Source: Arthrobacter sp. Leaf337
GTDB taxonomy: Bacteria; Actinomycetota; Actinomycetes; Actinomycetales; Micrococcaceae
DNA length: 64,000 bases
Assembly: GCF_001423745.1 (NCBI RefSeq)
Contig: NZ_LMPC01000026.1
Coordinates: 187,250-251,249, forward strand
Direction: 5' to 3'
A model generated the notes under the pieces. It searched no databases. It saw nothing but the letters and a program-made list of their open reading frames with translations, and had not been told where the DNA came from. Below, piece after piece: positions 27,748-35,303 of the stretch. Position 1 is the stretch's first letter. Each line of letters begins with the position of its first letter. The position numbers and the translations under genes are program-made.

Positions 27748-28269
27748 ATGGCTCCTCTTTATCCTTTCGCCGGCACCAGCCCGGACGTCCACCCATCAGT
27801 CTTCGTCGCCCCCAGCGCCTCCGTGATCGGCAAAGCCACCCTCGCCGCGGACGCCAGCGCGTTCTACGGTGTCTCCGTGCGGGCCGACACCGCCGCCATC
27901 ACCGTTGGTGAGGGCAGCAACCTGCAGGACAATGTTGTGCTGCATGCCGACCCGGGATTCCCGTGCAGCGTCGGGGCCCGCGTCAGCGTCGGCCACAGTG
28001 CCGTGGTGCACGGCTGCACGGTCGAGGACGACTGCCTCATCGGCATGAGCGCCACCATCCTGAACGGTGCGGTGATCGGCGCCGGCTCCCTGGTGGCCGC
28101 CGGCGCCGTGGTCCTTGAAGGAACCGTCATCCCGCCCCGGTCATTGGTGGCCGGCGTCCCGGCGAAGGTCCGCCGTGAACTCACCGACGAGGAGTTCGAC
28201 GGCGTGAAGCGCAACGCCGCCCACTACCGCGAGCTCGCGCAGGCGCACCGGGAGCTTCACGCCGGCTAA
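27748..28269 (+). CDS. Gamma-carbonic anhydrase family protein
   Basis: Left-handed beta-helix protein of hexapeptide repeats, 173 aa, forming trimers with metal sites between subunits. The three metal-ligand histidines are seen in VVLHADPG and VGHSAVVHGCTV. Many family members are active carbonic anhydrases, but the activity of this one cannot be read from sequence. ATG 27748 has TAGGCT 6 nt upstream (27736-27741), a leaderless start. Confidence 0.9.
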   Translation: MAPLYPFAGTSPDVHPSVFVAPSASVIGKATLAADASAFYGVSVRADTAAITVGEGSNLQDNVVLHADPGFPCSVGARVSVGHSAVVHGCTVEDDCLIGMSATILNGAVIGAGSLVAAGAVVLEGTVIPPRSLVAGVPAKVRRELTDEEFDGVKRNAAHYRELAQAHRELHAG

Positions 28270-28287: not shown

Positions 28288-30018
28288 CTAGTCCAGGCTG
28301 ATCGGTCCCAGTGCGTCCAGCAGCTCGCCCGGTCCCGGGTTCCCGGCGGCTGACCGGCCGCCCAGGTGGTTCACCACGCCCCACACCGCGTTGAGGCCGG
28401 TGGTGACGGCGCCCTCGGCCCAACCGGCGGTGAAGGACACGTCATCGCCGGCCAGGAAGATCCCGCGCTGGGCTTCCGGCAGCTTGTCCTGCTTGAAGTG
28501 CGTGAACAGCCGCTGCTGGTAACGGTAGTGCCCGGGCAGGTTCGCCTTGAAGGCGCCCATGAAGTTGGGGTCCGCTTCCCAGGAGACGGTGATGGGCTGG
28601 CCGATGATGTGGCTGGCGATGTCCACGCCCGGGTAGATCTGCTCCAGGGAGTGCAGCATGAGCTCCACCCGCTGGTCGGCGTCGAGCGCCAGCCACTTCA
28701 GCGCGTCGTCGTTCCACGTGTAAGAGAGCAGGATGACGGCGGGCTTGTCCGGACCGTCGTCGAGCAGGTAGGTGGCGCGGTTCAGCCGGTCGGTCAGGGT
28801 CATGGACAGGACATCCCGGCCCGTAGCGGGATCGGTGTCCTTCCAGAACGGGCGGTCCACCATCACGAAGGTCTTGGAGGACTGCATGTAGTGCGAGCGC
28901 TCGATCGCCGTCCACAGCTCCGCCGGAAACAGTGCTTCCTCGGTGTGGATCCGGGTGGACAGCAGCCAGGACTGGCACGTGGTGACGACGGCGGGATAGC
29001 TCGCCTCCCGGCCCCAGCGTTCGCGCAGGCGCAGGTCGCCGTTGGCGTCCCGGCTGATGCGGTCCACGGCGCCCCTCGGGGAGCCTGAATGCAGCGACGC
29101 CAGTGACGTTCCTTCCGGCCAGTGGGCCATGCCCGACGGCGCGTGCTGCCACAGCGCCTCGGGGAGCCGCTGCGCTCCCCCGGCAATCAGGCGATGCTGG
29201 TCATCGGCGTCGGTATAGACGACGCGGAGGATTTCGAGGATCGAGTTGGGGAAGTCGGTATCCCAGCCGCCGGTGCCGAACCCCACCTGCCCGAATGCCT
29301 CTCGGTGCGCGAAGCCGGCCTTCTTGAAGGACTCGCTGGCCGCGATGAAGCCGTAGAACGTCTGTTCGTCCATCAGCGGCAGGAGTTCGTTCCAGATCTC
29401 CTTGATCCGGGCCGTGTCCCGCGCCCGGATGGCGTCCTGCATCTCACTGAAGCGGGCGCCGTCGTTCACTGCCGCTTTCCACGCGTCCGCCACTTCACGG
29501 AAGAACGGCGGCAGGTCCGCCGGCGTGCTCGCGTAGTGCTTCTGCCCGGCCAGTTCAATCACGGTGCTGGAGGTGACCGGGGCCAGCGGGTTGGGGAACT
29601 CCTGGGTCTGCAGGCCCAGCAGTTCCACGTAGTGGTAGAACGCCTTGCCGGACACCGGGAACCGCATGCCGCCGAGGTCCGCCACCACGCCGGGAGCCGA
29701 CGGGAAGCTGGCAGTCCGCAGCCGGCCGCCAATCTGGTCGGCCTCGTACATGACCGGGCGTAGGCCCAGCTTCATCAGTTCGTAGGCCGTGACCAGGCCG
29801 GACAGGCCCGCGCCGACCACGGCCACCTGGGTGCCGTACAGCTCTGGCGGGACCGAGCCGAGGCCGTCCGGGTGCGCGAGGTAGTGGTCGTAGCTGAACG
29901 GGAAGTCCGGGTTCAGCATGGTGATGGGGGCGTCGGCAGCCCGGCCCGCGGCGGAGGCGGCTTCGGGGCCCGGGGCCGTAGCGGGGTTGTTGGCCGGCAG
30001 TTCGGTGGCGATGGTCAT
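28288..30018 (-). CDS. davB: Flavin amine oxidase family, probable L-lysine 2-monooxygenase
   Basis: 576-aa FAD enzyme. Rossmann motif VAVVGAGLSGLVTAYELMK starts near residue 68, with GGRLR downstream and C-terminal FAD contacts in GIFLAGDDVSFTAGWAEGA. From memory it closely resembles Pseudomonas DavB along its length, with shared stretches such as NPDFPFSYD, ADLGGMRFPVSG, AFYHYV, FGQVGFGTGGWD and MQSSKTFVMVDRPFWK. DavB converts lysine, O2 to 5-aminovaleramide, CO2 and water. It overlaps the permease gene by 4 bp (ATGA). A related amino acid (arginine, ornithine) is possible as substrate. Confidence 0.82.
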   Translation of the reverse strand: MTIATELPANNPATAPGPEAASAAGRAADAPITMLNPDFPFSYDHYLAHPDGLGSVPPELYGTQVAVVGAGLSGLVTAYELMKLGLRPVMYEADQIGGRLRTASFPSAPGVVADLGGMRFPVSGKAFYHYVELLGLQTQEFPNPLAPVTSSTVIELAGQKHYASTPADLPPFFREVADAWKAAVNDGARFSEMQDAIRARDTARIKEIWNELLPLMDEQTFYGFIAASESFKKAGFAHREAFGQVGFGTGGWDTDFPNSILEILRVVYTDADDQHRLIAGGAQRLPEALWQHAPSGMAHWPEGTSLASLHSGSPRGAVDRISRDANGDLRLRERWGREASYPAVVTTCQSWLLSTRIHTEEALFPAELWTAIERSHYMQSSKTFVMVDRPFWKDTDPATGRDVLSMTLTDRLNRATYLLDDGPDKPAVILLSYTWNDDALKWLALDADQRVELMLHSLEQIYPGVDIASHIIGQPITVSWEADPNFMGAFKANLPGHYRYQQRLFTHFKQDKLPEAQRGIFLAGDDVSFTAGWAEGAVTTGLNAVWGVVNHLGGRSAAGNPGPGELLDALGPISLD

Positions 30019-31553
30019 GAAAGGTCTGCCTTCGTCGGTTCGGGGGTGGACAGTGGTGAAGATTCGCGCCCGCTCAGTTCACGGTATTCCTCGTGGCCCA
30101 GCGCCGCCACCCTGGAGTGCTTCCGGCCGTAGCCGAAGTAGGCTGCGAGGCCCACTAGCATCCAGATGCCGAACACGGCCCAGGTGTCGGCGCCGAGGTT
30201 GGCCATAAGGTACGCACACATAAGCGCGCCGAGGATGGGGGTCAGCGGGAACAGCGGCACGCGGAAGGTGCGCTTGAGTTCGGGCCGGTTGCGGCGCAGG
30301 TAGATGACGGCCACGTTGACCAGGGCAAAGGCGAACAGGGTGCCGATGCTGGTGGCGTCCGCCAGGTCACCGAGCGGAACCAGCCCGGCCGTGAGGGCCA
30401 CGAGGACGCCCACGATCACGGTCCCGGCAACCGGGGTGCCGGTGCGGGAGGAGACGCGGCCGAAGATCCTGGGGATGAGGCCGTCGCGGGACATGGAGAG
30501 CAGGATGCGGGTCTGGCCGTAGAGGACGGTCAGGACGATGCTGGCGATGGCCAGCACGGCGCCGACGGCGAAGACCAGGGCGATCCACGGCTGGCCTGTG
30601 GTTTCCTCGAGGATTTTCACCAGGGCGGCCTCGGTGCCGTCGAACCAGCCCCAGGGACGGGCGCCGATGGCGGCGACAGCCACGAGGACATAGATGGTGG
30701 TGACGATCACCATGGAAAGCATGATGGCGCGCGGCAGGTCCCTTTTGGGATTGCGCGCTTCCTCGCCGGCCGTGGAGGCTGCGTCGAAGCCGATGTAGGA
30801 AAAGAAGACCGTCGAGGCGGCGGCCGAGACGCCTGCCGCGCCCATCGGCAGCAGCGGCTCGAAGTTGCCGGCGTTGAAGGCCGTGAATGCGACGGCGCAG
30901 AAGAAGAGGAGGATGCCTACCTTGATCACCACGATCGCGGTGTTGATCCAGGCGCTCTCCCTGGCCCCGCGAACCAGCAGGATCGTCGCGAGGACCACGA
31001 TGACCATGGCCGGGATGTTCATGATGCCGCCGTCACCGGGCGGCTGCGAGACGGCATCCGGCAGGACCTGCCCGAACACCGCGAGGGTCTCGTTCACGTA
31101 CTGGCCTGCACCGACGGCCACGGCGGCCACCGACACCGCGTACTCCAGCACGAGGCACCAGCCGCAGATCCAGGCCATGCCTTCGCCCATCGTGGCGTAG
31201 GTGTAGGAGTAACTGGAGCCCGCCACCGGGACCAGGCCGGCCATTTCGGCGTAGGACACGGCCGAGAGCAGGGCGGCGAGCCCGGCGATGGCGAACGAAA
31301 TCCAGATGGCGGGACCGGCCAGCGGCACGGATTCGCCGAGGATGACCAGGATGCCGGTTCCCAGCGTGGCCCCGACGCTGATCATGGTCAGCTGCAGAAC
31401 TCCGAAGCTGCGGACCAGCTTGGTGCCGCCATGGCCGTTGTCGGCCTCGCTGACCATTTGGCCGATCGGCTTGCGGCGCAGCAGTTGTGCAGCCAGGTCC
31501 GGACGGCGGGCAGCTGCCGGCGGCCGGCCGGTGAGTGTAGGCACAGTCATCAT
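30015..31553 (-). CDS. APC-family amino acid permease
   Basis: Twelve-TM cationic-amino-acid-type permease, 512 aa from ATG 31553. The start of TM1 is MISVGATLGTGILVILGESV and the family motif FFSYIGFDAASTAGEEARNP is intact. It is translationally coupled to the lysine-monooxygenase gene downstream, so it probably imports that enzyme's substrate, lysine. The frame stays open to 31631, but that N-terminal extension has no transporter features. Alanine-racemase-like gene diverges upstream. Confidence 0.88.
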   Translation of the reverse strand: MMTVPTLTGRPPAAARRPDLAAQLLRRKPIGQMVSEADNGHGGTKLVRSFGVLQLTMISVGATLGTGILVILGESVPLAGPAIWISFAIAGLAALLSAVSYAEMAGLVPVAGSSYSYTYATMGEGMAWICGWCLVLEYAVSVAAVAVGAGQYVNETLAVFGQVLPDAVSQPPGDGGIMNIPAMVIVVLATILLVRGARESAWINTAIVVIKVGILLFFCAVAFTAFNAGNFEPLLPMGAAGVSAAASTVFFSYIGFDAASTAGEEARNPKRDLPRAIMLSMVIVTTIYVLVAVAAIGARPWGWFDGTEAALVKILEETTGQPWIALVFAVGAVLAIASIVLTVLYGQTRILLSMSRDGLIPRIFGRVSSRTGTPVAGTVIVGVLVALTAGLVPLGDLADATSIGTLFAFALVNVAVIYLRRNRPELKRTFRVPLFPLTPILGALMCAYLMANLGADTWAVFGIWMLVGLAAYFGYGRKHSRVAALGHEEYRELSGRESSPLSTPEPTKADLS

Positions 31554-31652
31554 TGACGTCCGTTCGTGAGTAGTTAGCGGCTTTCCCCTGGTACAGCTTA
31601 GGTTTGTGAGCCACCTCTCATCGTTGTGCAAAATGACCTATAGTCTTCTGGC

Positions 31653-32861
31653 ATGAGACTTAATGCACACACCGAGGGCACGCGGAACGCGGCGCTCACC
31701 GGACAGGTCAGCGTTGACCTTTCGGCCATCGCAGACAACATCCGCACTCTCCGCCAGCGCTCCGCGGCACCCCACTTCATGGCGGTGGTGAAGGGCAACG
31801 CCTACGGCCACGGACTTGTTGACGTCGCCCGGACGGCACTGTCGGCCGGCGCGGACTGGCTGGGAACGGCGCAGCTTCATGAGGCGATCGCCCTGCGCCG
31901 CGCAGGCATCACCGCTCCGGTACTGTCCTGGCTGTACCTCGCATCCGCCTCCAGCGAGACAATCCGGGAAGCGCTGGCGTACGACGTCGACGTGTCGCTG
32001 GGCAGCGTCGCCCAGCTCGACGTCGTGGCCGGCATCGCCCGCCAGCTGGGCCGTCCCGCCGTCGTCCATCTTGAACTGGACACGGGGCTGAGTCGCGGCG
32101 GGGCGCGGGCGGAGGACTGGGCGGAACTCGTCACCGCTGCCCGGGCGGCGGAGCGTGACGGCACGCTCTGCGTGCGCGGCGTCTGGACGCATCTGGCCTG
32201 GGCCGACGTTCCGGCACACCCGGCCAATCTGGCGGCGGTGGAGGCTTTCGAAGAAGCCGTCCGTGCGGCCAGGGCGGCGGGCCTGGAACCGGCTCTCCGG
32301 CACGTCTCGAGTTCGGCCAACATCCTTGACCGGCCGGAATTCGCCTTCGACATGGTGCGGGCCGGCCTGGCGTTCTACGGGCTGGCTCCGGCCGACCACC
32401 TGGCTCCGGCCGACTTCGGCCTGCGCCCCGCCCTGACGGTCACGGCCCCGGTGGTGCTGGTGAAGAAAGTGCCGGCCGGGACCGGCGTGAGCTACGAGCA
32501 CCAGGCCATCACGCACGAGCCGCGGTATCTGGGGCTGATCCCGCTGGGCTATGCGGACGGGATCCCCAAGGGCATCACGGGCCGCAGCCTGATCCTCGTC
32601 GGGGGCCGCCGGGTTCCGGTGATCGGCAAGGTCTGCATGGACCAGTTCATGGTGGACCTGGGCCCGGATTCCCTGGGCGTGGCCGTTGGTGACACAGCTG
32701 TGCTATTTGGCGATCCGCGCACCGGGGCCGCGAGCGCCGATGACTGGGGCGCGGCGATCGGCAGCCACGGCGACGAGATCATCAACCGGATTGCCCCGCG
32801 CCTGCCGCGCGCCTACGAGTGCCCGGACTACCAGGAAGCCGGTGCTCCCGGTGGCGCCTGA
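31653..32861 (+). CDS. alr: Alanine racemase family (possibly broad-specificity amino acid racemase)
   Basis: PLP enzyme of the alanine racemase fold, 402 aa. PLP lysine is in MAVVKGNAYGHGLV near residue 49, the second-base tyrosine in GVSYEHQAI, and KVCMDQFMVDLG is typical. ATG 31653 has TATAGT 8 nt upstream (31639-31644) and no Shine-Dalgarno, indicating a leaderless mRNA. In this lysine cluster it may turn D-lysine or another D-amino acid into the L form, rather than, or besides, making D-alanine for the wall. That is inferred from position. Confidence 0.85.
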   Translation: MRLNAHTEGTRNAALTGQVSVDLSAIADNIRTLRQRSAAPHFMAVVKGNAYGHGLVDVARTALSAGADWLGTAQLHEAIALRRAGITAPVLSWLYLASASSETIREALAYDVDVSLGSVAQLDVVAGIARQLGRPAVVHLELDTGLSRGGARAEDWAELVTAARAAERDGTLCVRGVWTHLAWADVPAHPANLAAVEAFEEAVRAARAAGLEPALRHVSSSANILDRPEFAFDMVRAGLAFYGLAPADHLAPADFGLRPALTVTAPVVLVKKVPAGTGVSYEHQAITHEPRYLGLIPLGYADGIPKGITGRSLILVGGRRVPVIGKVCMDQFMVDLGPDSLGVAVGDTAVLFGDPRTGAASADDWGAAIGSHGDEIINRIAPRLPRAYECPDYQEAGAPGGA

Positions 32862-34530
32862 GGCAGCCGTCGAGCGGCTCGGCTTCGTCACGCTGGAGCA
32901 GTTCCTGCAGAAGCTGCCGCCGGAGCTGAGAATACTCCACGACGGCGGCAACGGTGCCGGGATGCTCCGCTGGGTGGAGCCGAGCGAACTGGAGGATCCG
33001 ACGCCCTACCTTCTCGACGGCGAGTTTATCCTCACCGCCGGGTTGCCGTTCCTCGGCGAGGGCGGCCGCGAGGGAAAGGTGGACGCCTATGTGCAGCGGC
33101 TGGTCGGCGCCGGGGTGGGGGCCCTGGGGTTCGGACTGGAGCCGTACTTCGACGCCGTGCCCGGGACCGTGCTGGCGGCATGCCGTCGCCACAACCTGAC
33201 CCTGGTGGAGTTTCCCAGGACTGTTCCGTTTGCGGCGATCGGACTGGCGTTCTCGCAGCTGCTGGAGTCGGACAACGCCAGGGTGTTCCGGCAACTGGCG
33301 GACACCAACCGCCAGCTGATGCGGGCGGTCCTGTCGGCCAGGCCGGAGCACGAACTCCTGGCGGCGTTGGTGCAGCGGGTTCCGGTCTGGGCGCTGCTCG
33401 TCGGGGCCGACGGCAGGATCCGCGCCCGGGCCGCGGCCGACGGCGGAAGCGGCAACAGCAGCGGAACTGGCGCTGCCGGCCCGGCCGGCAACCAGTCCCC
33501 GCCCGCCGCCGTCGAACTCTCCGCTTTGCAGCCGCTGCTGAAACGGCTACTGGGCGGCAGCGGCCCCCGGGTTGAGATGGAGTCCCTCGAGGAACCGCGG
33601 CCGTCCACGGTGTTCGGCCACCCGCTCCGCAGCACCCGGGATGCCAACCTCGGCGCGCTGATCCTGGGCTCCGGCGGACCGCTCACGCCGGCCCAGAACA
33701 GCGTGGTGTCCTCGGTGGTGGGGCTCCTGGAACTGCTGGTGCGGCAGCGGACCAGCGGCTCGCTGGCACCCAGCCAGCTCGCGACCGCGCTGTTGCTGCA
33801 TCCGGACAGCGTGGCCTCCGGCGGCACGAAGCACATCAACGGCCTCAAAGACCTCCTGGCGCAGAGCATCTCCTCCACGCGCTCGGCACACCTGCGGGTT
33901 GTCCAGGGTGTGAAAGCGGAACCCGGCGGTCCTGCGGGAGACAGCCCCGTCCGGGAACTCCTGCAGTGGCGCCGCATATTCGACACCAAGCTGGTGGAGA
34001 TCACTGACTACGGTTTTGCCGCCATCACCCGCCTCAAGGTCGACGATGCCCTGCTGGCAGAGGCGGAGGAACTCGGCTGGCGCCTGGTGATCGGGGATGC
34101 CACCGAGTTCCAGGCCTTGGCGTCCGCGTACCGGCGGGTGACGTCGCTGCGCGCCCGGGTTCAGGCAACCGGCAGGAGCGCCCGCGTGGACGAGGTGACC
34201 TGGTCCGTGGCCGGACTGCTTGGCCGCGAGGCCGGGACCATGCTGGCGGCACGCCTGCTGGAGCCGGTTCTTGGCCAGGAGGATCCCGAGCGGCGCGCCG
34301 CCCAGCTGGCGGTGCTGCGGACGTGGCTCGGAGAGAACGGGAGCTGGGACGCCACGGCGAAAGCCCTGGGCTTGCACCGGAACAGCGTCCGCCGGCAGAT
34401 CAACGCCGTGGCCGAGCTTCTGGAGACCGATCTCAACCAGGCCCAGGTCCGCGCGGAGCTCTGGTTCGCCCTTCAGTACGTGGACGAATCCCCGCCGGCA
34501 ACGGAAGCCGCGCCCTCCCAGTCCGAGTAA
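32842..34530 (+). CDS. PucR-family transcriptional regulator
   Basis: 562 aa. N-terminal PucR domain (FVTLEQFLQKLPPELRIL through FDAVPGTVLAACRRHNLTLV), a variable middle region with a Gly/Ser/Ala linker near residues 205-225, and a C-terminal HTH_30 domain with TAKALGLHRNSVRRQINAV. Members often activate nitrogen-compound catabolism. GTG 32842 follows AGGAA and overlaps the racemase gene by 20 bp, so the two are coupled; it is the likely regulator of this cluster. The 3' end overlaps the convergent amidase gene by 58 bp. Confidence 0.87.
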   Translation: MLPVAPEAAVERLGFVTLEQFLQKLPPELRILHDGGNGAGMLRWVEPSELEDPTPYLLDGEFILTAGLPFLGEGGREGKVDAYVQRLVGAGVGALGFGLEPYFDAVPGTVLAACRRHNLTLVEFPRTVPFAAIGLAFSQLLESDNARVFRQLADTNRQLMRAVLSARPEHELLAALVQRVPVWALLVGADGRIRARAAADGGSGNSSGTGAAGPAGNQSPPAAVELSALQPLLKRLLGGSGPRVEMESLEEPRPSTVFGHPLRSTRDANLGALILGSGGPLTPAQNSVVSSVVGLLELLVRQRTSGSLAPSQLATALLLHPDSVASGGTKHINGLKDLLAQSISSTRSAHLRVVQGVKAEPGGPAGDSPVRELLQWRRIFDTKLVEITDYGFAAITRLKVDDALLAEAEELGWRLVIGDATEFQALASAYRRVTSLRARVQATGRSARVDEVTWSVAGLLGREAGTMLAARLLEPVLGQEDPERRAAQLAVLRTWLGENGSWDATAKALGLHRNSVRRQINAVAELLETDLNQAQVRAELWFALQYVDESPPATEAAPSQSE

Positions 34531-35303
34531 AGCTCCGGCCGGCGCTCCCTGAGGTACGGCACGGCTTCCCGCGCGTTGCGGGCGCTGGCGGCGGACACCT
34601 CGGCGTACAGCAGTTCCGGCGCCGGTCCTGCAGCGGCCAGCAGGGAGCCGTCGGGACCGGCGATGACGCTGCCGCCCAGGAACTCACAGCCGTCTTCCTC
34701 CCCTGAGTGGTTGGCATAGGCCACGGTCAGCTGGCTCTCCAGAGCCCTTGCGCGCAGCAGGACCTGCGGGACGGAGTCGAATCCCCGGGACAGGGCCGTG
34801 GGAACCAGGAGCAGTTCTGCGCCGCGGACCGCGGCGGCACGAACGGCTTCGGGAAACTCGACGTCGTAGCAGATCACCATGGACGTTTTGATGCCCTGGA
34901 AGTCCACGACGGCGGGAGGTTCGGCGGCCGGGCTGAACGCCGTGCGCTCCTCCTCGCCAAACAAGTGGACCTTGGCGTAGTTCAGCACCTCGGCCCCTTC
35001 TCGGTCCACCAGCGTGGAGGTGATCTGCCACCGGCCGTCCGCGGTGACGGCGGGCAGGCTGTACACCAGGGCGATGCGATTCTTCCGCGCGATGCCGGCC
35101 AGCGTCCGGCGGATGGCCGGAAGGCTTGCGGGATCCAGTCCGGACCGGACCCGGAGGGGCGCATACCCCACGGGAAACAGCTCCGGGGTGAGCAGCACCC
35201 CCGCCCCGGCGGACGCGGCCGACCGGGCGGCGTCGTCAATTGCCCCGCAGTTGGTTTCCACATCAAGTACAGCGGCGTTCGCCTGCAGGAGTGCCAGCAG
35301 CAC
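34473..35303 (-). CDS. davA: Nitrilase-superfamily amidase, probable 5-aminovaleramidase
   Basis: 276-aa carbon-nitrogen hydrolase with the complete triad: Glu41 (LLTPELFPVGY), Lys111 (NYAKVHLFGEEE) and Cys145 (SMVICYDVEFPE). DavA, a family member, hydrolyses 5-aminovaleramide to 5-aminovalerate and ammonia, the step after DavB, and is of similar size. GTG 35303 is chosen because AGAGGTGG lies 5 nt upstream; the longer frame (to 35474) adds non-family residues. The Dav assignment rests on the neighbouring DavB-like gene; alone the sequence only gives the superfamily. Confidence 0.75.
   Translation of the reverse strand: MLLALLQANAAVLDVETNCGAIDDAARSAASAGAGVLLTPELFPVGYAPLRVRSGLDPASLPAIRRTLAGIARKNRIALVYSLPAVTADGRWQITSTLVDREGAEVLNYAKVHLFGEEERTAFSPAAEPPAVVDFQGIKTSMVICYDVEFPEAVRAAAVRGAELLLVPTALSRGFDSVPQVLLRARALESQLTVAYANHSGEEDGCEFLGGSVIAGPDGSLLAAAGPAPELLYAEVSAASARNAREAVPYLRERRPELYSDWEGAASVAGGDSSTY

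Follow-up and report, generated by a model that had tools for sequence, protein, structure and literature searches.

The 64,000-nucleotide stretch of Arthrobacter sp. Leaf337 analysed here (the window; contig NZ_LMPC01000026.1, positions 187,250 to 251,249) harbors, between 28288 and 35303, a cluster of five genes encoding a flavin amine oxidase, an amino-acid permease, an alanine-racemase-fold enzyme, a PucR-type regulator and a nitrilase-type amidase. The cluster probably encodes an arginine oxygenase route with an optional racemase (a probability of roughly two in three), leading from L-arginine through 4-guanidinobutyramide and 4-guanidinobutyrate to 4-aminobutyrate (GABA). An arginine 2-monooxygenase is favored because of the pocket signature of the oxidase and the neighbours of related oxidases, which include a guanidinobutyrase-like gene and a polyketide starter set. 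An earlier note on this DNA had taken lysine as the substrate, with the names DavA and 5-aminovalerate; this is probably wrong, as the pocket and the neighbours of the relatives point to arginine.

In the proposed order of steps, the permease would import basic amino acids, the racemase would convert D-arginine (perhaps D-lysine and D-ornithine too) into the L-form, the oxidase would form 4-guanidinobutyramide from L-arginine, and the amidase would convert this to 4-guanidinobutyrate. From the latter, GABA and urea would be released by a guanidinobutyrase-like enzyme whose gene lies elsewhere in the genome, and GabT would continue with GABA. The PucR protein would respond to the substrate or an intermediate and regulate the two divergent transcripts from a shared region. 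Arginine oxygenase pathways were reportedly described decades ago in coryneform bacteria and Streptomyces griseus, and the route itself is therefore not new; what is new is the racemase subfamily, in which a gate change is fixed, and the way in which pocket residues and neighbouring genes go together across the oxidase family. The features of the cluster are:

28288..30018, minus strand: flavin L-amino-acid 2-monooxygenase, 576 aa, PF01593; type B pocket (Asp238, Ala254, His258, Gly515; numbering of the Pseudomonas sp. AIU 813 enzyme); probable L-arginine 2-monooxygenase
30015..31553, minus strand: APC/CAT-type amino-acid permease, PF13520 and PF13906; ATG at 31553 preferred (512 aa), open frame to 31631
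31606..31621, strand not assigned: conserved dyad GTGAG-N6-CTCA(C/T), candidate PucR operator from its recurrence in related intergenic regions
31639..31644, plus strand: TATAGT, −10-like; the racemase ATG starts 8 nt beyond
31653..32861, plus strand: alanine-racemase-fold enzyme, 402 aa, PF01168 and PF00842; remodelled entrance (Asp374, Glu141 and His372 at Tyr354, Lys129 and Ile352 of BsAlr); probable basic amino-acid (D/L-arginine) racemase
32851 or 32842 (the likeliest GTG starts)..34530, plus strand: PucR-type regulator, PF07905 and PF13556; begins within the racemase 3′ end
34473..35303, minus strand: nitrilase-superfamily amidase, 276 aa, GTG start, PF00795; Glu41, Lys111 and Cys145 intact; probable 4-guanidinobutyramide amidase

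Pocket of the oxidase and neighbours of related oxidases

The oxidase matched the lysine enzyme of Pseudomonas sp. AIU 813 with 813 bits and 61% identity, versus 202 bits and 33% identity for tryptophan 2-monooxygenase (TMO), in agreement with the DavB-family resemblance proposed in the earlier note. A tryptophan 2-monooxygenase or a simple amine oxidase was rejected on the basis of the 33% identity and of Val in TMO at the position of Asp238; the clustering with TMO that the note had envisaged as the contrary outcome was not seen. The homology to the AIU 813 oxidase/monooxygenase (PDB 3we0, 5yb6-8; DavB type) spans residues 30-575 and includes the plug loop VGFGTGGW. Most of the substrate-binding residues named from ligand structures of the AIU 813 enzyme (PMC5832979) are retained, including Asp238, which supplies an acidic partner for the substrate's basic end; Arg102, Tyr416, Trp418, Phe473 and Trp516 are also shared. 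The changes between the two enzymes are Cys254 to Ala, Gln258 to His, Ser420 to Asp, Pro514 to Ala and Ala515 to Gly (AIU 813 to window). The lysine-enzyme signature (Gln258, Ala515) is absent from the window oxidase, which has His258 and Gly515. The change of Ala515 to Gly, along with Trp235 to Phe, has been named as widening the pocket in TMO and PAO (PMC5832979).

The pocket columns were read in 104 loci. Type A (Asp238, Gln258, Ala515) comprised the AIU 813 enzyme and 10 loci, one of which (L310) belongs to a different genus within the family of the window. Type B (Asp238, His258, Gly515) comprised 85 loci, of which 38 are own-family clusters that include the permease and PucR and the other 47 are not. 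Four loci belonged to type N (Asn238), three of these being same-genus second copies, and five, including the broken L077, fitted no type. A tree was built from 82 oxidase sequences, with same-genus rows thinned beforehand to seven plus the window and with the distant TMO as the only basis for the root. Together with L207, the 11 type A rows formed one well-supported group. The window oxidase fell in the adjacent group (36 rows), within a clade of 17 rows that also contains the guanidinobutyrase-linked L194 and L315.

In the stretches examined, a guanidinobutyrase-like ureohydrolase was present near 17 of the 47 type B oxidases outside the window's family, compared with 0/10 of type A, 0/38 of own-family type B, 0/4 of type N and 2/5 of the rest (L207, L344). 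The difference between these 47 type B loci and type A gave a Fisher p of 0.025, for rows that are not independent and with kinship ignored. The gene lay 0-4.2 kb from the oxidase in these 17 loci (seven in family f14, five in f7, two in f17, two in f22 with Tsukamurella and one in f115), and its linkage needed five changes on the tree. A GabT-like aminotransferase was found near 2/10 type A oxidases and near 1/47 type B oxidases outside the family (L330). The two nearest non-family relatives, L315 (82%) and L194 (76%), carry the guanidinobutyrase-like gene together with a thiamine pyrophosphate (TPP) enzyme, and this pair is 60–64% identical to two genes that lie side by side on contig C2 in the window genome. 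A permease 60–64% identical to that of the window was present near 9/16 type B oxidases of family f21 (probably Streptomyces).

In the window genome, the guanidinobutyrase-like gene (C2:222721-223899) overlaps the following TPP-enzyme gene by 4 bases, the pair being L215:8222-11106. Its product matched Pseudomonas guanidinobutyrase best among PDB entries (3nio, 276 bits), with 267 bits for 3-guanidinopropionase. The second-best model for the TPP partner was 5-guanidino-2-oxopentanoate (2-ketoarginine) decarboxylase, with 310 bits versus a cut-off of 500; the AIU 813 enzyme makes some keto acid, and if the window oxidase did likewise, the two branches could converge on 4-guanidinobutyrate. The guanidinobutyrase-like gene was found in 35/36 same-genus genomes, broken in one. 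GabT of the window genome passes TIGR00700 (590 versus a cut-off of 507 bits). An arginase was not found in this genome, the only PF00491 matches being this ureohydrolase and HutG. From a reading of the sequence, AmtB/PII-like genes adjoin the guanidinobutyrase-like gene.

A type B oxidase (with Phe516), a nitrilase-type amidase, an AMP-ligase and a type I polyketide synthase (PKS) occur together in L333. The same three-enzyme set makes the 4-guanidinobutanoyl starter from arginine in Streptomyces (PMC5082578), and an arginine oxidase gene has been used as a probe for such polyketide clusters (PMC4737276). As in this marginolactone (arginoketide) set, an arginine monooxygenase step would be followed by an amidase step in the window (PMC5082578, PMC10322714). 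The Streptomyces set activates the acid by a CoA ligase, whereas in the window, which has no PKS or ligase, the acid would be degraded; the window also adds the permease, racemase and PucR. In L344, the oxidase (Gln258, Gly515, Phe516) is accompanied by the end module of a polyketide synthase, a LuxR regulator and a guanidinobutyrase-like gene; this locus is possibly a marginolactone cluster.

Organization and conservation of the cluster

The five genes were as called in the earlier note, with a 576-aa oxidase, an ATGA-coupled permease, a divergent racemase-fold gene and an overlapping PucR gene, and the amidase residues Glu41, Lys111 and Cys145 were exactly as it had claimed. The Pfam calls for all five proteins were above cut-off. 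The ATGA at 30015-30018 joins the permease stop and the oxidase start, indicating translational coupling. The racemase and PucR genes run opposite to those of the oxidase and permease from a shared gap of 99 bases (31554-31652). The PucR gene overlaps the racemase 3′ end by 11–20 bases, depending on the GTG start, and meets the amidase gene tail to tail with a 3′ overlap of 58 bases. The PucR protein consists of an N-terminal PucR domain (PF07905) and a C-terminal helix-turn-helix (PF13556). The amidase has the CN_hydrolase fold (PF00795, 130 bits) with a complete Glu-Lys-Cys triad, and none of the NCBIfam models scored above its cut-off.

Among 36 same-genus genomes, the oxidase was found in 32, one of them (L077) with broken frames, and the permease and PucR adjoin it in all 32. 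The amidase was seen in 30/32 of these loci; in the remaining two (L053 and L061) it was not seen in a stretch that stops 3.7–3.9 kb past pucR. The racemase was present in 13/32. A search of a named collection with the racemase gave 76 loci from the best 80 matches, and the 47 orthologues among them (≥70% identity; Arthrobacter, Paenarthrobacter, Pseudarthrobacter and Sinomonas) all lay between the permease and PucR, beside the oxidase. The amidase was visible in 45 of these 47 loci in the stretches examined, so that its linkage to the oxidase, the absence of which would have spoken against the earlier note, is conserved. The remaining 29 loci, all below 50% identity, had no oxidase or permease nearby (0/29) in the stretches examined, some of which are short. 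The closest named racemase among the matches listed was that of Arthrobacter sp. UNC362MFTsu5.1 (96% identity). At E up to 1e-100, the racemase was found in 14/245 family genomes, the window genome counted, and all 14 copies were inside the cluster. Across the whole genus, 182/206 genomes had an oxidase of the family, either of type B or of the sister type N. The gene arrangement is not due to chance. Owing to the linkage counts in the same-genus genomes and the named racemase loci, the oxidase-permease-PucR-amidase block is a stable core and the racemase probably an accessory that was repeatedly lost. Frame-broken loci (L077, L138 and L141) were kept unmended, and L077 was excluded from the pocket alignment, the oxidase tree and the core-protein tree.

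A GTGA-N8-TCA dyad was present in 80/85 permease-racemase/PucR gaps of related loci, compared with ∼0.008 per region in single-base shuffles (kinship uncorrected). PucR may be the protein that binds this candidate operator, judging from its position. The racemase mRNA is probably leaderless, as TATAGT stands 8 bases before the ATG.

Gate residues and distribution of the racemase

The racemase retains the pyridoxal 5′-phosphate (PLP) lysine, Lys47, and the catalytic Tyr281, and it passes the alanine racemase model TIGR00492 (290 versus a cut-off of 168 bits). It lacks the inner-gate Tyr354 of BsAlr, having Asp374 there, and the carbamylated Lys129, having Glu141 there. These changes are fixed among the linked orthologues, with Asp at position 354 in 45/45 readable sequences and Glu at position 129 in 47/47; the Ile352 position is His in 44/46. 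Among 31 sequences used for comparison (29 from unlinked loci, plus the housekeeping copy and the S. lavendulae enzyme), position 354 is Tyr in 27, His in 4 and never Asp, and position 129 is Lys in 26/31. By its sequence, the racemase is a distinct alanine-racemase-fold subfamily with a fixed gate change, and it is probably a basic amino-acid racemase in which the Asp at the gate position could face the basic side chain of the substrate.

Tyr354 is said to set the alanine limit of Alr, and the lysine/arginine racemases Lyr (Proteus mirabilis) and Bar (Pseudomonas putida) share with the window racemase the Alr fold without the Alr-specific Tyr354 and Lys129 (PMC3485190). Gln at the Tyr354 position accompanies broader specificity (PMC4517790). 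Lyr and Bar have Thr391/Ala393 where the window racemase has Asp, and Asn next to the conserved PLP-orienting Arg (Arg136) where it has Gly149. The window racemase is also much nearer to actinobacterial Alr, with 329 bits to 1vfh versus 97–124 bits to PDB chains named lysine or broad-specificity racemase. As in Pseudomonas putida KT2440, where deletion of the lysine/arginine racemase limits L-lysine and L-arginine catabolism, the racemase would serve basic amino-acid catabolism; the periplasmic Alr of that strain makes D-lysine for the pipecolate path, whereas the window racemase adjoins an oxygenase with an L-specific proven relative (PMC6034422). Such a racemase would account for possible D-arginine use by a soil bacterium, and it offers a cheap test of how the alanine-racemase fold could turn to basic amino acids.

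The racemase was present in 18/39 own-family clusters (38 and the window). On a tree of the three core proteins, its presence needs seven changes, at least five of them forced by well-supported branches, and it occurs in several early branches; a single early gain followed by repeated loss fits best. A late gain was rejected, since 18 of the 21 racemase-free clusters retain the promoter-like stretch and the apparent first racemase codons (mostly M-R-x-x-A; e.g., L044, L045 and L062), which in seven of the 18 are open in frame into PucR. Selection for the operator could be an alternative reason for the retention of the promoter-like sequence. The earlier note was right in placing the racemase and PucR with the oxidase, as their linkage in relatives attests; D-lysine is not the best name for the substrate, and the racemase is optional.

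Alternative assignments and related loci

Several observations weigh against the arginine route. The NCBI models call the ureohydrolase of the window genome an agmatinase (TIGR01230 above cut-off). Its co-occurrence with the oxidase is loose, because the gene is kept in four same-genus genomes without the oxidase and is missing from one with it, and beside the oxidase it was found in none of the 38 own-family clusters nor in the 16 type B loci of f21. In L330 (His258, Gly515), as in two type A loci, a GabT-like gene adjoins the oxidase and a guanidinobutyrase is lacking; the polyketide locus L344, with its guanidinobutyrase-like gene, has Gln258, and both L333 and L344 have Phe516; and L207, nearer to type A on the tree, also has a ureohydrolase (47%). 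Gly515 occurs in TMO and type N as well and is not a mark of arginine alone. The AIU 813 enzyme prefers lysine, arginine accounting for 6% of its oxidase activity (PMC5832979). With regard to the racemase, the Asn of the lysine/arginine racemases is replaced by Gly, and a charged residue at the Tyr354 site cut the alanine activity of AlrTt mutants (PMC4517790).

A lysine route through 5-aminovaleramide to 5-aminovalerate (DavB/DavA) with a lysine racemase would be in keeping with the near full-length match to the lysine enzyme, the conserved Asp238 and the oxidase-linked amidase, and GabT could act on 5-aminovalerate. This assignment is unlikely, as the window pocket differs from that of AIU 813 and all 10 type A sequences, and the aminotransferase and ureohydrolase counts near the two types point the same way. 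CsiD was searched for and not found in the window genome, a negative that does not extend to the glutaryl-CoA branch. Genes for davT/davD were ruled out beside the amidase, the PucR-amidase inserts of L109 and L104 being ABC-transporter-like genes and the frame between the amidase and a ROK regulator in L096 polysaccharide-deacetylase-like, each from sequence reading only. There is a smaller chance of a general basic amino-acid route, in which the oxidase would act about equally on arginine, lysine and ornithine and the racemase and amidase would be equally broad. The AIU 813 enzyme, which shares Asp238, accepts all three substrates (PMC5832979), and published lysine and arginine racemases are broad (PMC3485190, PMC6034422), but the neighbours divide according to pocket type, which suggests that particular omega groups have been selected for.

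The racemase might also be an ordinary spare alanine racemase in an accidental position, as its score against the NCBI model and its intact catalytic residues would allow; this is slightly less probable again, given the oxidase linkage in all 47 named orthologues across four genera (among the best 80 matches), the fixed Tyr to Asp and Lys to Glu changes, and a second, canonical Alr encoded elsewhere in the genome.

The arginine route with an optional racemase is hence preferred. A wider proposal is put forward tentatively, at somewhat under even odds: a two-enantiomer arginine oxygenase cluster, a new racemase subfamily whose Asp replaces the gate Tyr354 and would grip the basic side chain, and a residue code for the oxygenase family in which Asp238 with Gln258/Ala515 would denote lysine, Asp238 with Ala254/Gly515 (mostly His258) arginine and Asn238 citrulline, each tied to a matching next enzyme (aminotransferase, ureohydrolase and carbamoylase, respectively). 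Identity alone easily leads to a lysine monooxygenase label for homologues of this oxidase, and, by the pocket and neighbour evidence, many actinobacterial copies may use another substrate. In the open-access literature, judged from titles, no description was found of a lysine 2-monooxygenase with a racemase or PucR or in Arthrobacter, which does not contradict the earlier note's view of the combination as undescribed. Likewise, no description was found there of an arginine oxygenase with guanidinobutyrate in Arthrobacter, of an arginine racemase with PucR in actinobacteria, or of a citrulline monooxygenase/ureidobutyramide route.

The same oxidase comparison predicts a citrulline branch. Outside the window, the type N oxidase was observed as 12 copies in 11 loci (L073, L074, L075, L329 and L384-L390). 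A nitrilase-type amidase, an M20 enzyme and a permease accompany every copy, and all 11 loci also encode a PucR/CdaR-type regulator. The M20 enzyme of L073 passes a hydantoinase/carbamoylase model, and the permease of this locus is nearest to an asparagine permease, below cut-off. These loci would perhaps fit a citrulline 2-monooxygenase route (4-ureidobutyramide, 4-ureidobutyrate, GABA).

Downstream of the oxidase, the window encodes at 27748-28269 a gamma-carbonic-anhydrase-like hexapeptide protein (158 bits, cut-off 250), which is found in this position in 32/32 same-genus loci.

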